Part shown: piece after piece, positions 52,120-64,000 of the stretch | Position numbering within the stretch: the stretch's first letter is position 1 | How the letters are laid out: the number at the start of each line of letters is the position of its first letter | The notes under the pieces: generated by a model | The model's database searches: none | What the model was told of the DNA's origin: nothing | What the model saw: the letters and a program-made list of their open reading frames with translations, nothing else | Made by a program: the position numbers and the translations under genes | From: Candidatus Poseidoniales archaeon | GTDB lineage: Archaea; Thermoplasmatota; Poseidoniia; Poseidoniales; Poseidoniaceae | Direction: 5' to 3' | Length of the DNA: 64,000 bases | NCBI GenBank assembly: GCA_009887095.1 | Contig: QXYC01000004.1 | Location: 25,561-89,560 of the forward strand

Positions 52120-54146
52120 CCGTGTCGCCCAAAGTGATGATCCAAAGCATCGAGTGGAAGCCGCAGCGCTGTTGGACGACCATGGACGCAAGCCCAGGGA
52201 TTTGGAATGCGGCGCATGTCATCGAGCAACCGCCTCATTTCCGGGAGGGTCAGTTTTTCATTCGCCTTGACAGCTCCGCGGCAAGCGTTTAGGAACGCAA
52301 GGTGGTCCTTTCGATCATCAACCGTTGTAAGGGGTGCACCATCTTCTGATGTGTCTTGCAGCAAGTCAAGCATGAACGGTATGACTTCTTTGCCTTCCAA
52401 TAACTGAGGCGCAGCGATGACCGACCACCCTTGTTCCGAGCTCTGCACTTCAAATCCAACTGTTCTGAAGGTATCTTGAGCAGCTTCCATGCGAACACTT
52501 TGTCGAGCGTCAAGGTTCAATGGTAATGGTTCGAGACGGGTTTGACTTGCCCAAATAGATTCGTTGTGTCGCAATCGTTCGTACCGCACCCTCTCGTGCA
52601 GCGCGTGTTGGTCGATCAACAACAACTCATCTTCCGCTTGCACCAGAATATAGGAGTCTGCAAATTGAGCCAAAGGTTCCATTTCAGGTAAATCATTGAT
52701 GATTGGACCGAGTGGTGATTCGTCGCTTGGGGATGAGCGTACGCCTTGACCTGCGTGACGATGGAGTTCACGCTCTGCAGGTGAGAGTGCTGGTGCTGTT
52801 GGTTTCTTATCCATTCCAGGCAACGTGTTCTGGGCGGACGGCGCCGTGGATTGTGGTCGTTGTTTCACAGGTTTTGGAGCGGATTCTGCCTCGCCTCCAT
52901 GGAGGTTGAGTTGAGCACCAGCTGCGATCGCCCATGCTGGTGGAATTGGAGATGCGGATTCCTTCCGCGGTAGTAGAATCGGCGTCGTTCCTGCCGCAGC
53001 TGCCATTGGGTCATCCGCCTCATTTTCTTGTGGTGCTGGTTTCGGTTTGAAGTGCTCTTGAATGCTTGGAACCTGGCTTTGACTTAATCCTTGTAATCCA
53101 GGAATACCTCCTGCAGCATCAGGCTCAGTCGGCACAGATTCGAGGGTATGCGCAATGGCGCGTTCCAATCGCTCCAGCACCCTCCATGAATGCCGCAATC
53201 GCACTTCCCTCTTTGTAGGGTGAACGTTGACATCCACCTCACTTGGCGGAAGATGAAGAGAAAGCACTGCAAGGGGATGTCTGCCTTGCATCAAACGGGT
53301 TCGGTAACCCCTTCGAATGGCTTGTAAAAATGGACCTGAAGCAACCGGTCTGTCGTTGATGAGAATGTGGATATCATCTCCTTTTCCCCGGGTGATGTCA
53401 GGCGTGCTGATCCAACCCGTCCAAGTTTCTTCACCTGGTGCACTTGCATCGACTTCTGGGGCATTGAGTTCCAGCATTGATTCCGCTTGCCCTCCAAGGA
53501 GGTCATACAAGCGATCCGTCATTGCTTCAGATGCGGGTACGTCAAGGACCACTCGCTCATCGATTACAAGTCGGAAGGCCACACCTTGATGGGCCATTGC
53601 GTGGGCGACCACAACATCAACAATGCGAGCATTTTCAGTCGCAGGGCGCCGTTGGAACGCGAGCCTTGCGGGTGTGTTTTGGAACAAGTGTTCGACATCA
53701 ATTCTGGTTCCATTTGCCATCCCGAATGGTTCGATGGAACCTTTGATACCGTCATCCATCACAATCCGTTTGCCTTCAGTGTTCGAGGGGCGACTTGCAA
53801 TGCTCAGTGCTGAGACCATGCCGATGCTGGCCAGTGCCTCGCCTCGGAATCCAAGCGTGTGGATGGAATTGAGATCTTCGCGCTTCTTCAATTTGGAGGT
53901 TGCGTGGCGATCAAGTGCCAGAGGAAGGTCGTCTGCATCAATGCCGCTTCCATCATCTTCGATTCGAATGAGGTCAAAACCTCCTCGCTCAATCGTGATG
54001 ACAACACGCTTTGCATCAGCATCAAGGCTGTTTTCAAGCAGTTCCTTGACAACCTGGGCCGGTCGTTCAACAACCTCGCCAGCAGCGATATGGCCAATGG
54101 TCGCATCATCGAGCTGGAGGATTCTGTTTGGTTCACTCAATTGCAT
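52116..54146 (-). CDS. mutL: DNA mismatch repair protein MutL
   Basis: A 676-residue MutL. GHKL ATPase: IAAGEVVERPAQVVKELLENS, DADAKRV and FRGEALASIGMVSAL. The C-terminal part has the metal-dependent nicking motif DQHALHERVRYE (fits DQHA-x2-E-x4-E), ACRGAVKANEKL and CVHGRPT, so strand nicking without MutH is expected. The middle is a long Pro/Ser/Ala linker. Start ATG 54146 behind GGAGGCG overlaps the mutS end by 14 bp. Confidence 0.95.
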   Translation of the reverse strand: MQLSEPNRILQLDDATIGHIAAGEVVERPAQVVKELLENSLDADAKRVVITIERGGFDLIRIEDDGSGIDADDLPLALDRHATSKLKKREDLNSIHTLGFRGEALASIGMVSALSIASRPSNTEGKRIVMDDGIKGSIEPFGMANGTRIDVEHLFQNTPARLAFQRRPATENARIVDVVVAHAMAHQGVAFRLVIDERVVLDVPASEAMTDRLYDLLGGQAESMLELNAPEVDASAPGEETWTGWISTPDITRGKGDDIHILINDRPVASGPFLQAIRRGYRTRLMQGRHPLAVLSLHLPPSEVDVNVHPTKREVRLRHSWRVLERLERAIAHTLESVPTEPDAAGGIPGLQGLSQSQVPSIQEHFKPKPAPQENEADDPMAAAAGTTPILLPRKESASPIPPAWAIAAGAQLNLHGGEAESAPKPVKQRPQSTAPSAQNTLPGMDKKPTAPALSPAERELHRHAGQGVRSSPSDESPLGPIINDLPEMEPLAQFADSYILVQAEDELLLIDQHALHERVRYERLRHNESIWASQTRLEPLPLNLDARQSVRMEAAQDTFRTVGFEVQSSEQGWSVIAAPQLLEGKEVIPFMLDLLQDTSEDGAPLTTVDDRKDHLAFLNACRGAVKANEKLTLPEMRRLLDDMRRIPNPWACVHGRPTALRLPLDALDHHFGRHG

Positions 54147-56784
54147 CGCCTCCAAGGAGTTTCTTGAGTTGGTAAAGCGCATCATGCGCCTGCCTTGGCG
54201 TCATTTCATCGATGTCCAGTCCCTCGATGCGTTCGATGATATCGTGATGGGCTTGTGGCATTAGTGGTGCCGCCTCTTGTGTCTTGGTTTGGTTCATTGC
54301 TGCGGCGGCAAAATAGCCCATGAGGCTTGATTGACCATGCGCTCTTGCGGTCGGAGTGCCTGATTCGCCAGCCTTTGCCCCCTCGGCTTGGCGTTCCAAA
54401 AACGCCAGCAAGTCAGTGGCACGTTCCACAACCGGGCGTGGAAGGCCAGCGAGGGCTGCGACTTGTACACCGTACGAATCATCGCATGGTCCATCAGCGA
54501 CGGTGTGCATAAATCGCAGTTCTCCATTCGCTTGCGCAACTTGAACATGGACGTTGACCAAACCGTCAACTTCCCCTTCGAGTCCAATCAATTGGTGATA
54601 ATGCGTCGCAAACAAGGTTCTGGCTTGAATCCGTTTGCAGATGTCTTCAGTGACTGACCATGCAATGGAAAGGCCATCAAAGGTCGATGTACCCCTACCG
54701 ATTTCATCCAAAAGAACCAGCGAGTTGGATGTGGCGCGACGAAGGATGTGTGCGACCTCAATCATTTCCATCATGAATGTTGAACGCCCTCTGCGGAGGT
54801 CATCACTTGCTCCAACTCGTGTGAAGATTCTGTCAACGAGGCCAATTTTTGCTTTCTCAGCTGGAACAAAAGATCCACTCTGAGCCAAGATGCTCATCAA
54901 TGCGGTGGTGCGCAAATAGGTCGACTTTCCTCCCATGTTGGGCCCAGTGATCAACAGGAACTTGCGCTTCTTTGTCAAATCCAAATCATTTGGAACAAAA
55001 CCAGATTGCTGTTCGAGCACAGGGTGTCGGGCGCCTTGAACCTTCATTTGGTCGCTCTGAGCCATTTCCGGTCGAGTCCATGCTCGACTTCGGGCGATGG
55101 TGCCAAAGCATTGCAACACATCGATTGCAGCAACTTTTCCAGCAATCATGGCTAATGTCTGAGCATGCCCCTTGCAAGCCTCCCTCAAATTGATGAATTC
55201 ACGATACTCCAGTTCTTTCAGCTTGGTATCTGCCGTAAGGAGTGCATCATCTCGTTCAAGCAACTCATCGGTGACATACCTCGAGCCGTTGGTCATCTGC
55301 TGTTTTCGCTTCCAATGCTCTGGTGCTTTGGTTTCATTGATTTTTGTAACCTCGATGAACCAGCCAATCTGCCGATTCATTTTGACCTTCAAAGATGGGA
55401 TTTGGAGTTCGGCTTTGAGCTTCGTTTCTAATTCAGCAAACCACGTGTGGCCGTTCGTTGCGGTTTCTCGCAACTCGTCTACTTTGTCGTCAAAACCCGG
55501 GCGCAAAAGCCCTCCATCTCGGACGCTCAGCGGCGGTTCTTCGACCAATGTGCGCCGGATGTTCTCGGCGACATCCTGCAGAGCATCAAGGTCCGATGAA
55601 AGGTGGAGCAACAATGGATTCTCGGTCTCATTGCACAGGTTGATGATGGCAGGCATTCGTTCCAACGCATCGGCTACTGCCAACAAATCCCTTCCGTTTG
55701 ACCGATTGTATGCTAATTGTGTCGCAAGGCGTTCCATGTCTCGCAATCCCCGCAAGGCTTCTCGAAGCCCGTCTAGTCGGCGCGCAGATCTGGAAAGAGT
55801 TGCGACAGCATCGTGCCTTGCAGCGATTGCGGTGAGGTCTGCAAGAGGTCTCAAAATCCAAGTTTTGAGCAGGCGTCGCCCCATTGCACTTCGGCATGCA
55901 TTCATGGTTGAAAGGAGGCTTCCTTCGTACTCTCCTGCAAGCGTTGACGTCAATTCCAAGTTTCGAAGCGTGGTTTGGTCCAGCACAAGATGAGCGTTCT
56001 CTTCCACGACCTCAAGGTCTCGAAGTGGTACTTCCTCAGTCAGGTGCATGGACGCGAGGTAGTCGGCGGCTAATCCAGCGGCTGCGATGGCGAGTGGTGC
56101 GTCATCGAGGTCAATGTGCCCTAGGTCTGCGACTTTGAGGACCTTCGTAAGACGATCCCTTCGTTTGGCTTCGGATGCCTTGTGTTGGCTGATGGTGACG
56201 CCATCGAGGTGCGTGAACAACGCTCGGAGCGTCGCATCGTCCGCATCTTTTGGAGCGACGACAATCTCTGTCGGTCGCCATCGGAGAACTTCGTCAAGGG
56301 CCCTTGAAAACCGGTCATCACCGTCTAAATTCGAGGCCCATGCTTGGCCTGTCGATGCGTCAATGATTCCGATGCCGATGGACGATTTTCCGAGGCAAAT
56401 GCTGAGCAAGAGCGAGCGCTCTTCAGTACCGAGGAGTGATTCCTCGTACAAACTTCCAGGAGTGTAGACTCGAGTTACAACCCGCTCTAGGAGTTTTGCT
56501 CCCTCTCTCAGTTCCTGTTCTTGCTCAGCAACGGTGACCTTGTGGCCCGCTTTGAGCATGGTTCTGATGTTGTCTTCCAACGCATGCCACGGGAAACCAG
56601 CCATTTTGATTGGTTTTTCGGCTTTTTTGTCCCGTGAAGTCAAGGCCAAGCCGAGCACTTCTGAACCAGTCACTGCGTCCTCATGGAAGAGTTCATAGAA
56701 ATCACCCATTCGGAAAAATAAAACCGAATCTGGATGTTCAGTCTTGATGTCCATGAATTGGTCCATCATCCCTCGTTTTGACAT
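54133..56784 (-). CDS. mutS: DNA mismatch repair protein MutS
   Basis: An 883-residue MutS1. The mismatch-reading motif is MGDFYELF near the N-terminus with F-x-E; the ATPase has Walker A ITGPNMGGKSTYLR, Walker B LVLLDEIGRGTSTFDG and ATHYHQL. The helical tail ends in LKKLLGGDAIE. The start ATG 56784 follows GAAGGAGGTGA. Archaea mostly lack MutSL; with MutL in the same operon this is a bacterial-type acquired system. Confidence 0.97.
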   Translation of the reverse strand: MSKRGMMDQFMDIKTEHPDSVLFFRMGDFYELFHEDAVTGSEVLGLALTSRDKKAEKPIKMAGFPWHALEDNIRTMLKAGHKVTVAEQEQELREGAKLLERVVTRVYTPGSLYEESLLGTEERSLLLSICLGKSSIGIGIIDASTGQAWASNLDGDDRFSRALDEVLRWRPTEIVVAPKDADDATLRALFTHLDGVTISQHKASEAKRRDRLTKVLKVADLGHIDLDDAPLAIAAAGLAADYLASMHLTEEVPLRDLEVVEENAHLVLDQTTLRNLELTSTLAGEYEGSLLSTMNACRSAMGRRLLKTWILRPLADLTAIAARHDAVATLSRSARRLDGLREALRGLRDMERLATQLAYNRSNGRDLLAVADALERMPAIINLCNETENPLLLHLSSDLDALQDVAENIRRTLVEEPPLSVRDGGLLRPGFDDKVDELRETATNGHTWFAELETKLKAELQIPSLKVKMNRQIGWFIEVTKINETKAPEHWKRKQQMTNGSRYVTDELLERDDALLTADTKLKELEYREFINLREACKGHAQTLAMIAGKVAAIDVLQCFGTIARSRAWTRPEMAQSDQMKVQGARHPVLEQQSGFVPNDLDLTKKRKFLLITGPNMGGKSTYLRTTALMSILAQSGSFVPAEKAKIGLVDRIFTRVGASDDLRRGRSTFMMEMIEVAHILRRATSNSLVLLDEIGRGTSTFDGLSIAWSVTEDICKRIQARTLFATHYHQLIGLEGEVDGLVNVHVQVAQANGELRFMHTVADGPCDDSYGVQVAALAGLPRPVVERATDLLAFLERQAEGAKAGESGTPTARAHGQSSLMGYFAAAAMNQTKTQEAAPLMPQAHHDIIERIEGLDIDEMTPRQAHDALYQLKKLLGGDAIE

Positions 56785-58985: not shown

Positions 58986-60764
58986 ATGCGAGTAGCCGTT
59001 CTGAAGGAAGACAGTTGTCAACCAAAGAAGTGCAACGATGAATGTCATGCCTTCTGCCCACCGGTTCGAAATGGTCAAGAATGCATCATCCTCGATGACA
59101 AAACGGGCAAGCCTCACATTTCGGAGAGCCTTTGCATCGGCTGTGGAATTTGCATCAATAAATGTCCGCACGACGCCTTGATCATCGAACAATTGCCAAG
59201 CGAACTCGAGAGCGACATGATTCATCGGTATTCAATGAACGGATTCCGACTGTTCCGGCTGCCAACTCCATCAAAGGAAAGCGTTGTTGGAATCCTTGGA
59301 CCAAACGGTATGGGCAAATCAACGGCCATCAATGCCTTGTCGGGCCGTATGATTCCTAACCTCGGTGACTGGTTGGACAAGGAAGCGGATTGGGACGGTG
59401 TCATCGAGACATTGCCTCGAGGTGAACTTCGAGATTTCTTTGTGGCTGTACGGGATGGAAAAATCAAAGTTGCTCTCAAGCCACAAAATGTCGACCGGCT
59501 CCCGAAGCGGGTGAAAGGCACCGTCCGTGACCTTCTTTCCAAAGTCGATGAACGAAAGATGTTCGATGAGATGACAAAGAAACTTGGCATCGACCATTTG
59601 CTTGATCGAACGATTCAGCAACTCTCTGGCGGAGAATTGCAACGGATGGCCATTTGTGCAACGCTGCTTCGAGATGTCGATGTGTACTTCTTCGATGAGC
59701 CATCTTCTTACCTCGATATTCACGAGCGAATGAGAATTGTTCGGATCATCCAAGACCTCGCAGAAACAAAGCGCGTCATTGTTATCGAGCACGATTTGGC
59801 GGTGCTTGACGTGCTATGTGACCTGGTCCACATCGTTTACGGCAAGAAGGGGGCGTTCGGTATCTTCACGCCTGCACGGTCAACCCGTCAAGCCATCAAC
59901 ACCTACCTCGATGGATTCCTTCCAGAACAAAATGTCCGTATTCGTGACAAGCCGATCAAATTTCTTAATCACAGCGATCGTGTTTCAGAACTCGGTTCAC
60001 AAGTGGTCTCCTGGGGCGGACTTGGCAAAACCCTTGGTGAATTCAAACTCGAAACTGGAGAGGGCGCTGTGCACCGCTCTGAAGTCGTGGGTGTGGTTGG
60101 TCCCAACGGTACTGGCAAATCAACCATGATCAAGGTCCTTGCTGGTGAACATGAATACGATGAGGGCTGGGTCACTTCAGATGCTTCGATCTCCTACAAA
60201 CCTCAGCACATCCATGTCGATATCGATGGAAGCGTTCAGTTGTGGCTCGACAGTGAAATTGGTCCACGCTGGCGAAGCGGTGAATTCAATGTCAACGTCA
60301 TTCGAGCACTCGGTGTCGACCAGCTGCTTCCCAAGCGCGTCAAGAAACTCTCCGGTGGAGAGCGACAAGCGGTTTCTATAGCGATCTGTCTTGGTCGAGA
60401 GGCAGACTTGTACCTGCTTGACGAACCTTCGGCCCATCTTGATGCCAACGCTCGCATGGAAGCCGCCAAAGCGATTCGAAGAACCATGGAAGCCAACGAA
60501 AAGTCTGCATTCGTCATTGACCACGACGTTTACTTCATCGACATCGTCAGTGATTCCTTGCTTGTTTTCGAAGGCGAGGGTGGACGCTATGGAAAAGCGC
60601 AGGGCCCATTCAGACTTCAAGCAGGGATGAATCGATTCCTTGAAGGCGTGAATGTCACATTCCGGCGGGATCATGACTCAAAACGTCCACGGATTAACAA
60701 AACCGAAAGTCGAAAGGATCGAGAGCAGAGAACTTCTGGAGATTTCTACTCCTTCAATCATTGA
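58986..60764 (+). CDS. abce1: ABCE1/RLI ribosome-recycling ATPase
   Basis: A 592-residue twin-ATPase that splits ribosomes. The N-terminal iron-sulfur domain has NDECHAFCPPVRNG and CIGCGICINKCPHDAL (two 4Fe-4S clusters). ABC1 Walker A GPNGMGKST is near 105 and signature LSGGELQRM; ABC2 has GPNGTGKST near 372 and LSGGERQAV. Archaeal family, cytoplasmic. The start ATG 58986 follows AGGAGAAGGGGTGA. It is 13 bp ahead of the first nuclease-family gene and is likely in one transcript with it. Confidence 0.97.
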   Translation: MRVAVLKEDSCQPKKCNDECHAFCPPVRNGQECIILDDKTGKPHISESLCIGCGICINKCPHDALIIEQLPSELESDMIHRYSMNGFRLFRLPTPSKESVVGILGPNGMGKSTAINALSGRMIPNLGDWLDKEADWDGVIETLPRGELRDFFVAVRDGKIKVALKPQNVDRLPKRVKGTVRDLLSKVDERKMFDEMTKKLGIDHLLDRTIQQLSGGELQRMAICATLLRDVDVYFFDEPSSYLDIHERMRIVRIIQDLAETKRVIVIEHDLAVLDVLCDLVHIVYGKKGAFGIFTPARSTRQAINTYLDGFLPEQNVRIRDKPIKFLNHSDRVSELGSQVVSWGGLGKTLGEFKLETGEGAVHRSEVVGVVGPNGTGKSTMIKVLAGEHEYDEGWVTSDASISYKPQHIHVDIDGSVQLWLDSEIGPRWRSGEFNVNVIRALGVDQLLPKRVKKLSGGERQAVSIAICLGREADLYLLDEPSAHLDANARMEAAKAIRRTMEANEKSAFVIDHDVYFIDIVSDSLLVFEGEGGRYGKAQGPFRLQAGMNRFLEGVNVTFRRDHDSKRPRINKTESRKDREQRTSGDFYSFNH

Positions 60765-60777
60765 TGAGGTGACATGA

Positions 60778-62541
60778 ATGCCAGTTGGACTCCCGCCACT
60801 TGGAGGCCCACTTGGACGTTCCCGTTCACGAATTTCAGCAAGCGGTTTGACCACATTTCTCCGTTGCGAACGCCAATGGTTTCTCGGCTCGAAACTCGGG
60901 CTTTCTGGTCCAACAACACCCTCTCAAGTTCTTGGAATCGTCATTGAGGATGAACTGTGCGGTTTGCTGATGCACAGGCCTGATGCTAGCATTAACTCAC
61001 TTACTGAACTGAGCCACTGGATTGCCCAAAAAGTACCCGATGCTGCACGACGTGCACAAGAGGCTGGGCAAGCTGATTGGGATGCTTCCTTGTGGCGAAC
61101 GGCCGATTGGGTTTGGGAAGAAATAGAACTCGAAACAATGGAGGAAAAGCTTCGTGCAGGCTTGACCCTGTTCATGGAAGAGGTGAATGAGTGCATGAAT
61201 GCAGGCGGTGGCCCGTACCTCGAACAGTACAGAAGGGGTGAATGTCCATTCGAAGTTCCTTCACCTGCTTGGGGCGAGGAGCCACGCTTCCCAGTGCCCG
61301 ACAAGGTCCGCAGTTTCGGCATGCGCTCTTGGGCTCGTGACGAACCGATGGTATGGAACGAGGCAGGTACGGATGTGTCATGGCATGAAGCTTGGGAAAT
61401 AGCAAGGCCTTGGGTGAAGGACCCCCGCGTCCACCAACCCCAGCGATTGTACCACCCGGAAGGGTGGGCTGCAGGCGAACTTGACCTCGTGATGCGATGG
61501 GATGGTCGAATCCGTCTAATCGATATCAAATCTGGAGATCCAACTTCTCGGTTCGCAGCCTCCTTGCAACATCAACTTCGATTCTATGCTTGGTTGTGGC
61601 ATGAAACTCATGACGGTCAAACCATTGATGGATTGGAAGGTTGGTACCTCGCTGGCCCTCACCGACTCACCTACGATGCTCCAACAAAAGAAGAAATTCA
61701 TGCCATGACTACCGAGTTTTTTTCAATCAACAAAGCCATGCAGGGGATGGGCTCCGGGCCAGTAGCCCTTCCAGCACTGCCGGGTGACGCTTGTACGGGC
61801 GAAGCCGCTGGATGTCATTGGTGCAGCCTGGGCAAAAATTCTGATGGCTCATTGGTCAATGATGAATTGTTGGCATCGATTACCTCGGTCCGATCCTTGG
61901 AGGTGGCCTCACCAAGCCAGCCGCTTTCTTCAATTCCAAACCGAGTTCATGTGCATGGGAAATTCACTGGTGCTTGGGGCCCACTGCCCAACCACTTTGG
62001 CGAACCTGTGCTCGGCGCTATGTTGATGGCAGGTGGCGCTCAAATCACTGTTGAAGAAAGTGAGCCGGGTTCATATCCAGCACTCCATGACGGCCCGAAA
62101 GGGGAACTCGTGATCATCAATGCTCTGCCAGGTGTTTGGCGAGGCAGCCCTCGCCTTTACCTCGATTCGAAGAGCAAACTGATGACGGTTGCTGAAGCTG
62201 AAGAGCATTTTGCCGACTCTGGAAAAGACCTCAAAGACCTCACCACTCGAGTTGGACTTTTGCGAACGAGAGCGAACGTCGAGGGCATCGTGCTCAGTTT
62301 GAGAAAACGTTCTGGTGTTCGATTGGATGAAAAACCTTGGACCATGTTTGCAATGCACCTCTGGGATGGTGCTCACGTCGTGGAAATAGCAGCTTTTGGC
62401 TCGAGTATCTCTGGACAAATGGAAGCCATCCGGCCTGGAGATCGAATCACTCTGATGGCAGCAGAACTTGGCTGGCGTGCCGGCTTACCTCAACTTCGAA
62501 TCGACAACCGGAAAACTCGATTGACCATCAAAGACAATTAA
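60778..62541 (+). CDS. Fe-S PD-(D/E)XK nuclease-family protein (Cas4/RecB-like) with OB-fold, copy 1
   Basis: A 587-residue protein. The nuclease core reads GELDLVMRWDGRIRLIDIKS (active-site D and D-x-K) followed by LQHQLRFYAWL, the Q-x3-Y helix of Cas4/AddB. An Fe-S cluster is suggested by C in RCERQWF and the trio in DACTGEAAGCHWCSLG. The final 130 residues look like an OB fold (NVEGIVLSLRKRSGVRL). The family cuts or chews DNA ends in repair. The gene stands behind abce1 and is followed by a paralogue. Confidence 0.8.
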   Translation: MPVGLPPLGGPLGRSRSRISASGLTTFLRCERQWFLGSKLGLSGPTTPSQVLGIVIEDELCGLLMHRPDASINSLTELSHWIAQKVPDAARRAQEAGQADWDASLWRTADWVWEEIELETMEEKLRAGLTLFMEEVNECMNAGGGPYLEQYRRGECPFEVPSPAWGEEPRFPVPDKVRSFGMRSWARDEPMVWNEAGTDVSWHEAWEIARPWVKDPRVHQPQRLYHPEGWAAGELDLVMRWDGRIRLIDIKSGDPTSRFAASLQHQLRFYAWLWHETHDGQTIDGLEGWYLAGPHRLTYDAPTKEEIHAMTTEFFSINKAMQGMGSGPVALPALPGDACTGEAAGCHWCSLGKNSDGSLVNDELLASITSVRSLEVASPSQPLSSIPNRVHVHGKFTGAWGPLPNHFGEPVLGAMLMAGGAQITVEESEPGSYPALHDGPKGELVIINALPGVWRGSPRLYLDSKSKLMTVAEAEEHFADSGKDLKDLTTRVGLLRTRANVEGIVLSLRKRSGVRLDEKPWTMFAMHLWDGAHVVEIAAFGSSISGQMEAIRPGDRITLMAAELGWRAGLPQLRIDNRKTRLTIKDN

Positions 62542-62584
62542 AGGTGGCTTAGAGTTTAAGAAGCGTCGGTCAACATTGCGATGT

Positions 62585-64000
62585 ATGCCTGTCCGACTCG
62601 CCATTAACGACGATGATTCAGTGGGTCCCTACAACCGCTTGAGTGCGAGTCAGGTGAATGCCTACACAAATTGCTCAAGGATGTGGTTCTATGAGAAAGT
62701 GCGTCGATTCAAGATGCCTCAAATCCCTGTTCTGTTTGTCGGTCGTGCTGTTGAAGAAGCATTTTGCCGAATGCTCCAAGAATCGCCTGCGTTGTTAGCG
62801 CCAAGTGCCTCTTCGGATACGCTGTCCAATATTCCATTAGACGACAATGGCGTCCCGAGTCGGGATTCCGACATGCCTTGGCCAGCGGACCGCTTGCTCG
62901 CCTTGCCCACTGAAATGTGGCCAGTCGATCTCGAAGGCCTGCGCTCATGGGCTCAGCAACGTCTTCAGGCTCACCTTCCTTTGGCCCTTAAGGCCATGAA
63001 GGAGGAGTGGGAAAAAGACGAACGCAAAGCAGGTGACTGGTCAAGTGTTGACCCCGCACGGTGCATGGAAATGTGCCTGAAGGGGCTTGAGATGCACCTT
63101 GCAGAAGTGCAGCGATGTTTTGATGCAAACGGCGGCCCGGGACTTGAACAATGGCGAAAAGGGGTGCGACCTCATTGGCCCGCTCCGGACGGTCGCCGTT
63201 ACGAAATGTCCCTTCGCCATCCACTCGCACAAGATGGACCCCTGGTTTGGGTTGAGGCTTGGGAGATTTCGCGGCCTTGGTTTGTCGATCCACATGCCGG
63301 GAAATTTGCAATGAACGCCATCCATCCTGACCATTGGTTCCAAGGCGAGTACGACATGGTGTACCGATGGGATGGGCGAATCAACATCGTTGACCTGAAA
63401 GCCAGCGTCGGTGCAGGTGACCGCTCGGGCAATTATGTCGAACAACTGCGGATGTACGCCATGCTATGGTGGGTGACACATGAGCGTAAAGAGCAGGTTG
63501 ATGCCTTGCAAATATGGTACCTCGGTGCTGACGTGATAAAAGAAATCCAGGTTCCGACAGTTCCCGAAATGGAGGCCATGGAGACGAAGTTAGAATCGCT
63601 TTGGAAAGAAATCAAATCTGAACAACCGACCATCGACGACTGCCCACCAGAGCCTCTGCCAATGCGGGGTTTCTCACCGGGTGGCGTGCCTACAAAGGCG
63701 CCAGAAGAAAGCCGCTGCTCTCGGTGTGATTGGAAGGCTGTCTGTCCTGGTGGAGATGGGCCTGAGTCATTGCCCGATGGAGGTTCAATCCGTTTGCCTG
63801 GCTCGACAGCTTCCTATGACTTGACTCCAATCAACGCACTACAACCTCGGATGACGCTTATTGCCGACGTGTTCAGTGTGATGGGTGGTGGCGATGGTCG
63901 CCGTCCAAAGATCAAGATTGAACAGGATGGCCACTTTGCCAGTCTCCAGTTGTTGGTCGATCGTCATCAAGATGGTGAGCCTGCATGGCCCGCTGACTTG
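62585..64000 (+). CDS. Fe-S PD-(D/E)XK nuclease-family protein (Cas4/RecB-like), copy 2, cut by window end
   Basis: 472 codons are visible without a stop. The start ATG 62585 reads MPVRLAINDD. It repeats the layout of the gene before: RLSASQVNAYTNCSRMWFYE at the front, GEYDMVYRWDGRINIVDLKA as catalytic D and D-x-K, YVEQLRMYAMLWW, and the cluster cysteines SRCSRCDWKAVCPGG. The nuclease parts of the two genes are similar but clearly diverged. An OB-like start follows (LQPRMTLIADVFSVMGGG). No strong ribosome site is seen. Confidence 0.8.
   Translation, partial: MPVRLAINDDDSVGPYNRLSASQVNAYTNCSRMWFYEKVRRFKMPQIPVLFVGRAVEEAFCRMLQESPALLAPSASSDTLSNIPLDDNGVPSRDSDMPWPADRLLALPTEMWPVDLEGLRSWAQQRLQAHLPLALKAMKEEWEKDERKAGDWSSVDPARCMEMCLKGLEMHLAEVQRCFDANGGPGLEQWRKGVRPHWPAPDGRRYEMSLRHPLAQDGPLVWVEAWEISRPWFVDPHAGKFAMNAIHPDHWFQGEYDMVYRWDGRINIVDLKASVGAGDRSGNYVEQLRMYAMLWWVTHERKEQVDALQIWYLGADVIKEIQVPTVPEMEAMETKLESLWKEIKSEQPTIDDCPPEPLPMRGFSPGGVPTKAPEESRCSRCDWKAVCPGGDGPESLPDGGSIRLPGSTASYDLTPINALQPRMTLIADVFSVMGGGDGRRPKIKIEQDGHFASLQLLVDRHQDGEPAWPADL

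Follow-up and report, generated by a model that had tools for sequence, protein, structure and literature searches.

RecB/Cas4-like proteins with RPA-type tails, encoded in tandem behind ABCE1 in Poseidoniales archaea

What role might be played by two diverged genes for RecB/Cas4-like nucleases which follow each other directly after the gene of a ribosome-recycling ATPase? The question is raised by the far end of the window (the whole stretch of 64,000 nucleotides that was analysed), which lies on contig C27 of a 1.48 Mb assembly with a completeness of 68%. Near-identical loci are assigned to Candidatus Poseidoniaceae, within the Marine Group II archaea. These organisms abound in the surface ocean and, as far as we know, none of them has been cultured, which is why their genome maintenance is known from sequence alone. 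Two answers were offered by the original prediction, namely a paired AddAB-like system or a new end-processing system. The features of the locus, with the two genes designated nucA and nucB, are as follows (names of neighbouring genes are read from translations, except where a search is given):

58986..60764, + strand: ABCE1, ribosome-recycling Fe-S ATPase (Pfam ABC_tran, Fer4_RLI, Fer4)
60778..62541, + strand: nucA, complete, 587 aa, RecB/Cas4-like nuclease with two RPA-type OB folds (Pfam, alignment, AlphaFold, Foldseek)
60823..61842, + strand: NucA nuclease domain, residues about 16-355 (PF12705; AlphaFold secondary structure)
60865..60867, + strand: NucA C30, candidate first Cys ligand (Cys in 20/22 aligned NucA; Gly in genus g9)
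61483..61587, + strand: NucA catalytic motifs D236, D249-x-K251 and Q266-x3-Y270 (invariant in 22/22 aligned NucA)
61792..61824, + strand: NucA permuted Cys triplet C339-x6-C346-x2-C349 (NucA alignment)
61930..62538, + strand: NucA tail, two OB folds, residues about 385-587 (AlphaFold, Foldseek; hhalign to the NucB tail 99.6%)
62582..64000 in the window, on to 64432 in window numbering, + strand: nucB, RecB/Cas4-like nuclease with two RPA-type OB folds (Pfam, alignment, AlphaFold)
62672..62674, + strand: NucB C31, candidate first Cys ligand (30/30 invariant)
63353..63457, + strand: NucB catalytic motifs D258, D271-x-K273 and Q288-x3-Y292 (invariant in 30/30 aligned NucB)
63716..63745, + strand: NucB canonical Cas4/AddB-type Cys triplet C379-x2-C382-x5-C388 (30/30 invariant)
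63842..64000, + strand: start of the NucB RPA-like tail, the rest lying past the window (profile matches, AlphaFold, Foldseek, hhalign)

The nucB gene is cut by the end of the window; in the assembly it encodes 616 aa from the ATG at 62582 and ends at L001:3993, with a TTG at 62576 as an alternative start.

Both products match the Pfam family PF12705 (PDDEXK_1), NucA with an E value of 9e-14 and NucB with one of 3e-15, the scores being 52 and 56-57 bits versus a curated cut-off of 22, and the same family is matched by all 52 aligned members. The nuclease motifs D, D-x-K and Q-x3-Y, recognised beforehand in each of the two proteins, are all present and do not change in any of the 52 sequences (22 NucA and 30 NucB; loci L007, L027, L036 and L053 were left out of the alignments). 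As the identity of the aligned rows to the window copies goes down to 32-38%, the retention of these motifs in every row is far beyond chance. The position of the motif-I His (G-x3-H), however, is occupied by an invariant Glu, which is E57 in NucA (60946-60948) and E58 in NucB (62753-62755). In the RecB family this His is usual, though not universal in the superfamily. Hence, the predicted nuclease activity of the two proteins is not to be assumed; the substitution lowers confidence in activity, not in superfamily membership. According to Foldseek, the nuclease part resembles the viral RecB-family exonucleases of Thermus virus P23-45 and Haloarcula tailed virus HCTV-1 (target-normalised TM 0.5-0.6). 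Neither an Exo5 match nor a helicase domain was detected by Pfam scan in NucA, NucB or their aligned members. A third, solo RecB/Cas4-like nuclease of 387 aa, with a motif-I His recognised by eye (L269:2833-4975, G002:C1), is encoded convergently to the usual DnaQ-like exonuclease of the order.

In the case of the C-terminal parts, originally described as OB-like, the AlphaFold models place two OB folds behind the nuclease domain in both proteins (mean pLDDT of the two models 91.4 and 87.6), and Foldseek relates the tails to RPA/HIN/POT1 and other tandem-OB proteins. The likeness to RPA is one of sequence as well as fold: an archaeal RPA of solved structure (PDB 8aa9, E 3e-7; named here Pyrococcus abyssi RPA after its sibling entry 8aaj) is matched by the NucB tail, which hhalign also aligns with the Poseidoniales RPA at 97.4%, with two OB folds spanned, while the NucA tail is homologous to that of NucB. 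The OB tail alone was covered among the matches listed in the PDB fold search. Likewise, the matches listed outside the order in a phylum-wide profile search cover the tail only, in proteins that are mostly RPA-sized, and this search gave no match in five genomes from another order of the same class. The tandem RPA-type OB folds are thus a property of the tails, and the whole proteins are fusions rather than RPA, a separate RPA-like protein being also present in the cell.

Four cysteines had been noted in each protein. This count is correct for both, the arrangement being canonical in NucB, where C31 is combined with C379-x2-C382-x5-C388 in 30 of the 30 sequences, and permuted in the NucA of the window, where C30 is accompanied by C339-x6-C346-x2-C349. 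Alignment of NucA shows that family f2 of the order has retained the canonical C-x2-C-x5-C, whereas in most members of family f1, to which the window belongs, the third C-terminal Cys precedes the C-x2-C pair instead of trailing it. In genera g6 and g10 C-x-C-x2-C remains, and in genus g9 none of the four cysteines is present. The suggestion that NucA of family f1 simply lost its last Cys was rejected, because most genera show the permuted triplet instead. A fifth Cys lies in the helical insert and is conserved without exception in NucA (C139, 61192-61194) and in NucB (C179, 63116-63118). Judging by the four-Cys sets, an Fe-S cluster is plausible in NucB, and NucA, given the rearrangement, may be regarded as a candidate metal binder only. 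Between them, the two proteins offer three natural states, canonical, permuted and lost, with which the role of the four-Cys cluster in RecB-family nucleases could be probed.

A NucB match was found in 33 of the 33 genomes that are at least 90% complete. In the tree, the root of which was set between the two paralogue clades, NucA and NucB are well separated, both families of the order are found in each clade, and inheritance is essentially vertical. The presence of both families inside each clade fits a single duplication before Poseidoniales radiated. The description of the pair as tandem, diverged Cas4/RecB-like paralogues behind ABCE1 is therefore upheld by the shared PF12705 domain, the consecutive genes and the two clades. 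NucA is absent from seven f2 genera, which together make up one clade of the NucB tree, so that one loss is needed. The opposite holds for genus g9, represented by two genomes that are 80-85% complete: NucA is present and NucB absent. Since each of them may be missing alone, neither protein requires the other. Plasmids and phages yielded no homologue of either. Two sources of the pair were considered and rejected: scans of viral contigs were unconvincing (one with no match, one with a 71-residue fragment of 30%), and the nuclease domains of the genome's own AddA and AddB have profiles too distant in hhalign.

The two genes are consecutive on the same strand. Each of the 20 NucA loci examined has ABCE1 directly upstream of nucA, the stop of the one often overlapping the start of the other, and nucB is the next gene after nucA in 18 of the 20, the tandem order being seen in both families. 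Downstream of nucB the contig carries tRNA-Ser, PAC2 and aIF2alpha, and in many NucA-less genomes nucB is still close to PAC2-aIF2alpha; ABCE1, PAC2, aIF2alpha and the likewise neighbouring L10e are genes of translation and protein quality. The original prediction called for the next 10 kb to be read for a helicase and held that a CRISPR-cas or AddAB locus directly downstream would make the nucleases standard parts. As judged by gene content, there is neither a helicase nor such a locus in the 20 kb that remain to the contig end, and no cas genes stand beside nucA and nucB. In addition, cas1 was found in 0 of 60 genomes of the order (the control was found in 9 of 14 named genomes), and the window's own genome, 68% complete, gave no Cas4-model match.

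Several further observations concern the surroundings of the locus. In the NucA-less clade a radical-SAM gene lies directly 5' of nucB (L074:4889-6046, and in the same place in other f2 loci). A gene recognised by eye from its translation as MutS is found at 54133-56784 of the window and near the locus in several f1 genera. The place of NucB behind NucA is taken in genus g9 by a DnaQ-like exonuclease (RNase_T; L071:6559-7395, L072:7619-8455). This exonuclease is an extra copy, the usual DnaQ-like gene of the order being kept elsewhere, and its occurrence in this position suggests that this slot serves nucleic-acid end trimming.

Meanwhile, an AddAB-like pair is encoded on contig C24. The AddA-like protein (1664 aa) combines a UvrD helicase with a PF12705 RecB nuclease and matches the NCBIfam AddA models with scores below their cut-offs; its gene is overlapped by that of a 1241-aa protein (G000:C24:2578-11294, L211) called AddB-like from its size, C-terminal nuclease and position only. 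The AddA-like helicase is present in 39 of 40 genomes of the order. A terminal Cys cluster was seen in the AddA-like protein also; in bacterial AddAB such a cluster is known from AddB only. NurA (PF09376) was detected in no Poseidoniales genome covered by the search, while of 136 genomes of the phylum so searched 37 have it, including one from a different order within the class. A search for the Rad50 zinc hook gave none in the order, with the control positive in just 3 of 14 genomes, and is given no weight here. A repair set with an AddAB-like complex, RPA-tailed RecB nucleases, a bacterial-type MutS and no NurA detected is indicated for Poseidoniales, which would differ in this from the NurA-bearing relatives in the phylum.

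The proposed AddAB-like pairing would make NucA and NucB a heteromer, i.e. two nuclease subunits which would resect double-strand breaks together with a helicase encoded elsewhere, on which they dock. The tandem order conserved in both families is in line with it, as is the failure to find NurA, the usual archaeal resection nuclease, in this order when it is present elsewhere in the phylum. Nevertheless, the genome already has, on another contig, a dedicated pair of AddA- and AddB-like proteins that includes a helicase, the operon and its downstream region are devoid of helicases, NucA has been lost alone in one large clade and NucB is absent alone in one genus, all of which renders such a heteromer unlikely. 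Of the original prediction, the new end-processing system may be kept if it is taken less strictly, as a new architecture of a nuclease. A role in defence, with the two proteins acting on viral DNA in the manner of solo-Cas4, as has been put forward for certain Cas4-like proteins of PF12705, appears very unlikely in view of near-universal occurrence in the order, vertical inheritance, a fixed housekeeping neighbourhood and the lack of both cas1 in the 60 genomes and plasmid or phage homologues, even though the PADLOC Cas4 and DruK models are weakly matched and a part in defence or repair has been proposed for the solo-Cas4 that occurs in small genomes without CRISPR (PMC5704561).

The constant company of ABCE1, with its often overlapping stop and start, the proximity of NucB to PAC2-aIF2alpha in many NucA-less genomes, the translation and protein-quality neighbours and the ability of OB folds to bind RNA could all point to RNA-directed or ribosome-linked nucleases that are functionally tied to ABCE1. 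The tail, however, is nearest to ssDNA-binding RPA, it is a radical-SAM gene that lies upstream of NucB in the NucA-less clade, and RecB-family nucleases are, to our knowledge, DNA enzymes; a function of this kind is accordingly judged quite improbable. Finally, MutS about 4 kb upstream, and its recurrence in several f1 genera, brings to mind mismatch repair of the bacterial type, in which NucA and NucB might supply the exonuclease step. ExoVII and RecJ possess an OB-plus-exonuclease architecture, which the layout of NucA and NucB recalls, and ExoX, like the exonuclease that replaces NucB in g9, is of the DnaQ-like type. Yet MutS is encoded on the opposite strand, and none was seen beside the NucA loci retrieved from family f2, which leaves this role highly improbable.

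With reasonable though far from full confidence, NucA and NucB are regarded here as anciently duplicated, stand-alone, RPA-tailed ssDNA nucleases of the RecB/Cas4 family, which would trim ends or flaps in repair or replication in Poseidoniales. They probably stand outside both CRISPR and the AddAB-like complex and serve as a house-keeping tool of DNA repair or replication; ssDNA as the substrate, the metal cluster and the pathway are what we infer. The OB tail would grip ssDNA, either replacing the cell's own RPA or alongside it, and would pass it on to the RecB-type nuclease domain, the fold of which may be pinned by a four-Cys metal staple, probably Fe-S. The ssDNA tails or flaps to be trimmed would come from other enzymes, e.g. 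the unlinked AddAB-like complex. A bolder and rather doubtful version would have the pair as a helicase-free, RPA-fused counterpart of DNA2/EXO5, trimming ssDNA flaps and ends beside the AddAB-like complex and without NurA, and would have one NucA ligand moved across the C-x2-C under continued selection, as a visible permutation in a four-Cys nuclease. In either version the two proteins constitute a near-universal family of RPA-fused nucleases, order-specific as far as the phylum was searched; no published description of the pair was found in the literature searched.

It remains to compare the pair with known systems. In contrast to CRISPR Cas4, it has no adjacent cas1 or cas2, and Cas4 models score it marginally (TIGR00372, 18 bits versus a cut-off of 65; PDB 4r5q, E 0.0009). 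The C ... C-x2-C-x5-C pattern of the four-Cys Fe-S subgroup (Cas4, AddB, DNA2) is found in 30/30 NucB and, in the case of NucA, in family f2 only. Cas4-like proteins of pfam12705 outside CRISPR were surveyed by Hudaiberdiev (2017; PMC5704561) and include solo-Cas4, phage Cas4-like proteins and UvrD-Cas4 fusions. NucA and NucB share with them the Pfam family, the RecB motifs, the four-Cys pattern and the absence of a CRISPR link, but differ in having no helicase, no defence context, an RPA-type tail and Glu for the motif-I His; the pfam12705 section of that survey does not describe an RPA-tailed form, and neither OB-fold nor Thermoplasmata was found on searching the paper.

With AddAB/RecBCD the pair has in common the RecB nuclease motifs and, in NucB, the AddB-type Cys set, but it is free of any helicase or pseudo-helicase part, and the AddAB-like pair of the genome is separate; in hhalign the profile aligns with the genome's AddB nuclease over part of the domain only (86%). 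Eukaryotic DNA2 cooperates with RPA and itself contains an OB domain. A four-Cys RecB-type nuclease is shared with DNA2 and bacterial Bad (PMC7430649), from which NucA and NucB are set apart by the lack of a helicase and by OB folds that are C-terminal and RPA-like. EXO5 (exonuclease V), too, is a stand-alone nuclease of the RecB family, an Fe-S enzyme that degrades ssDNA as an exonuclease and is modulated by RPA; no NucA or NucB member gives an Exo5 match, however, and in the pair the RPA-type domains are fused on. The tails, lastly, have the tandem OB folds of archaeal RPA (PDB 8aa9 and the Poseidoniales RPA), but in NucA and NucB these folds are joined to a nuclease, in a cell that also has its separate RPA-like protein.
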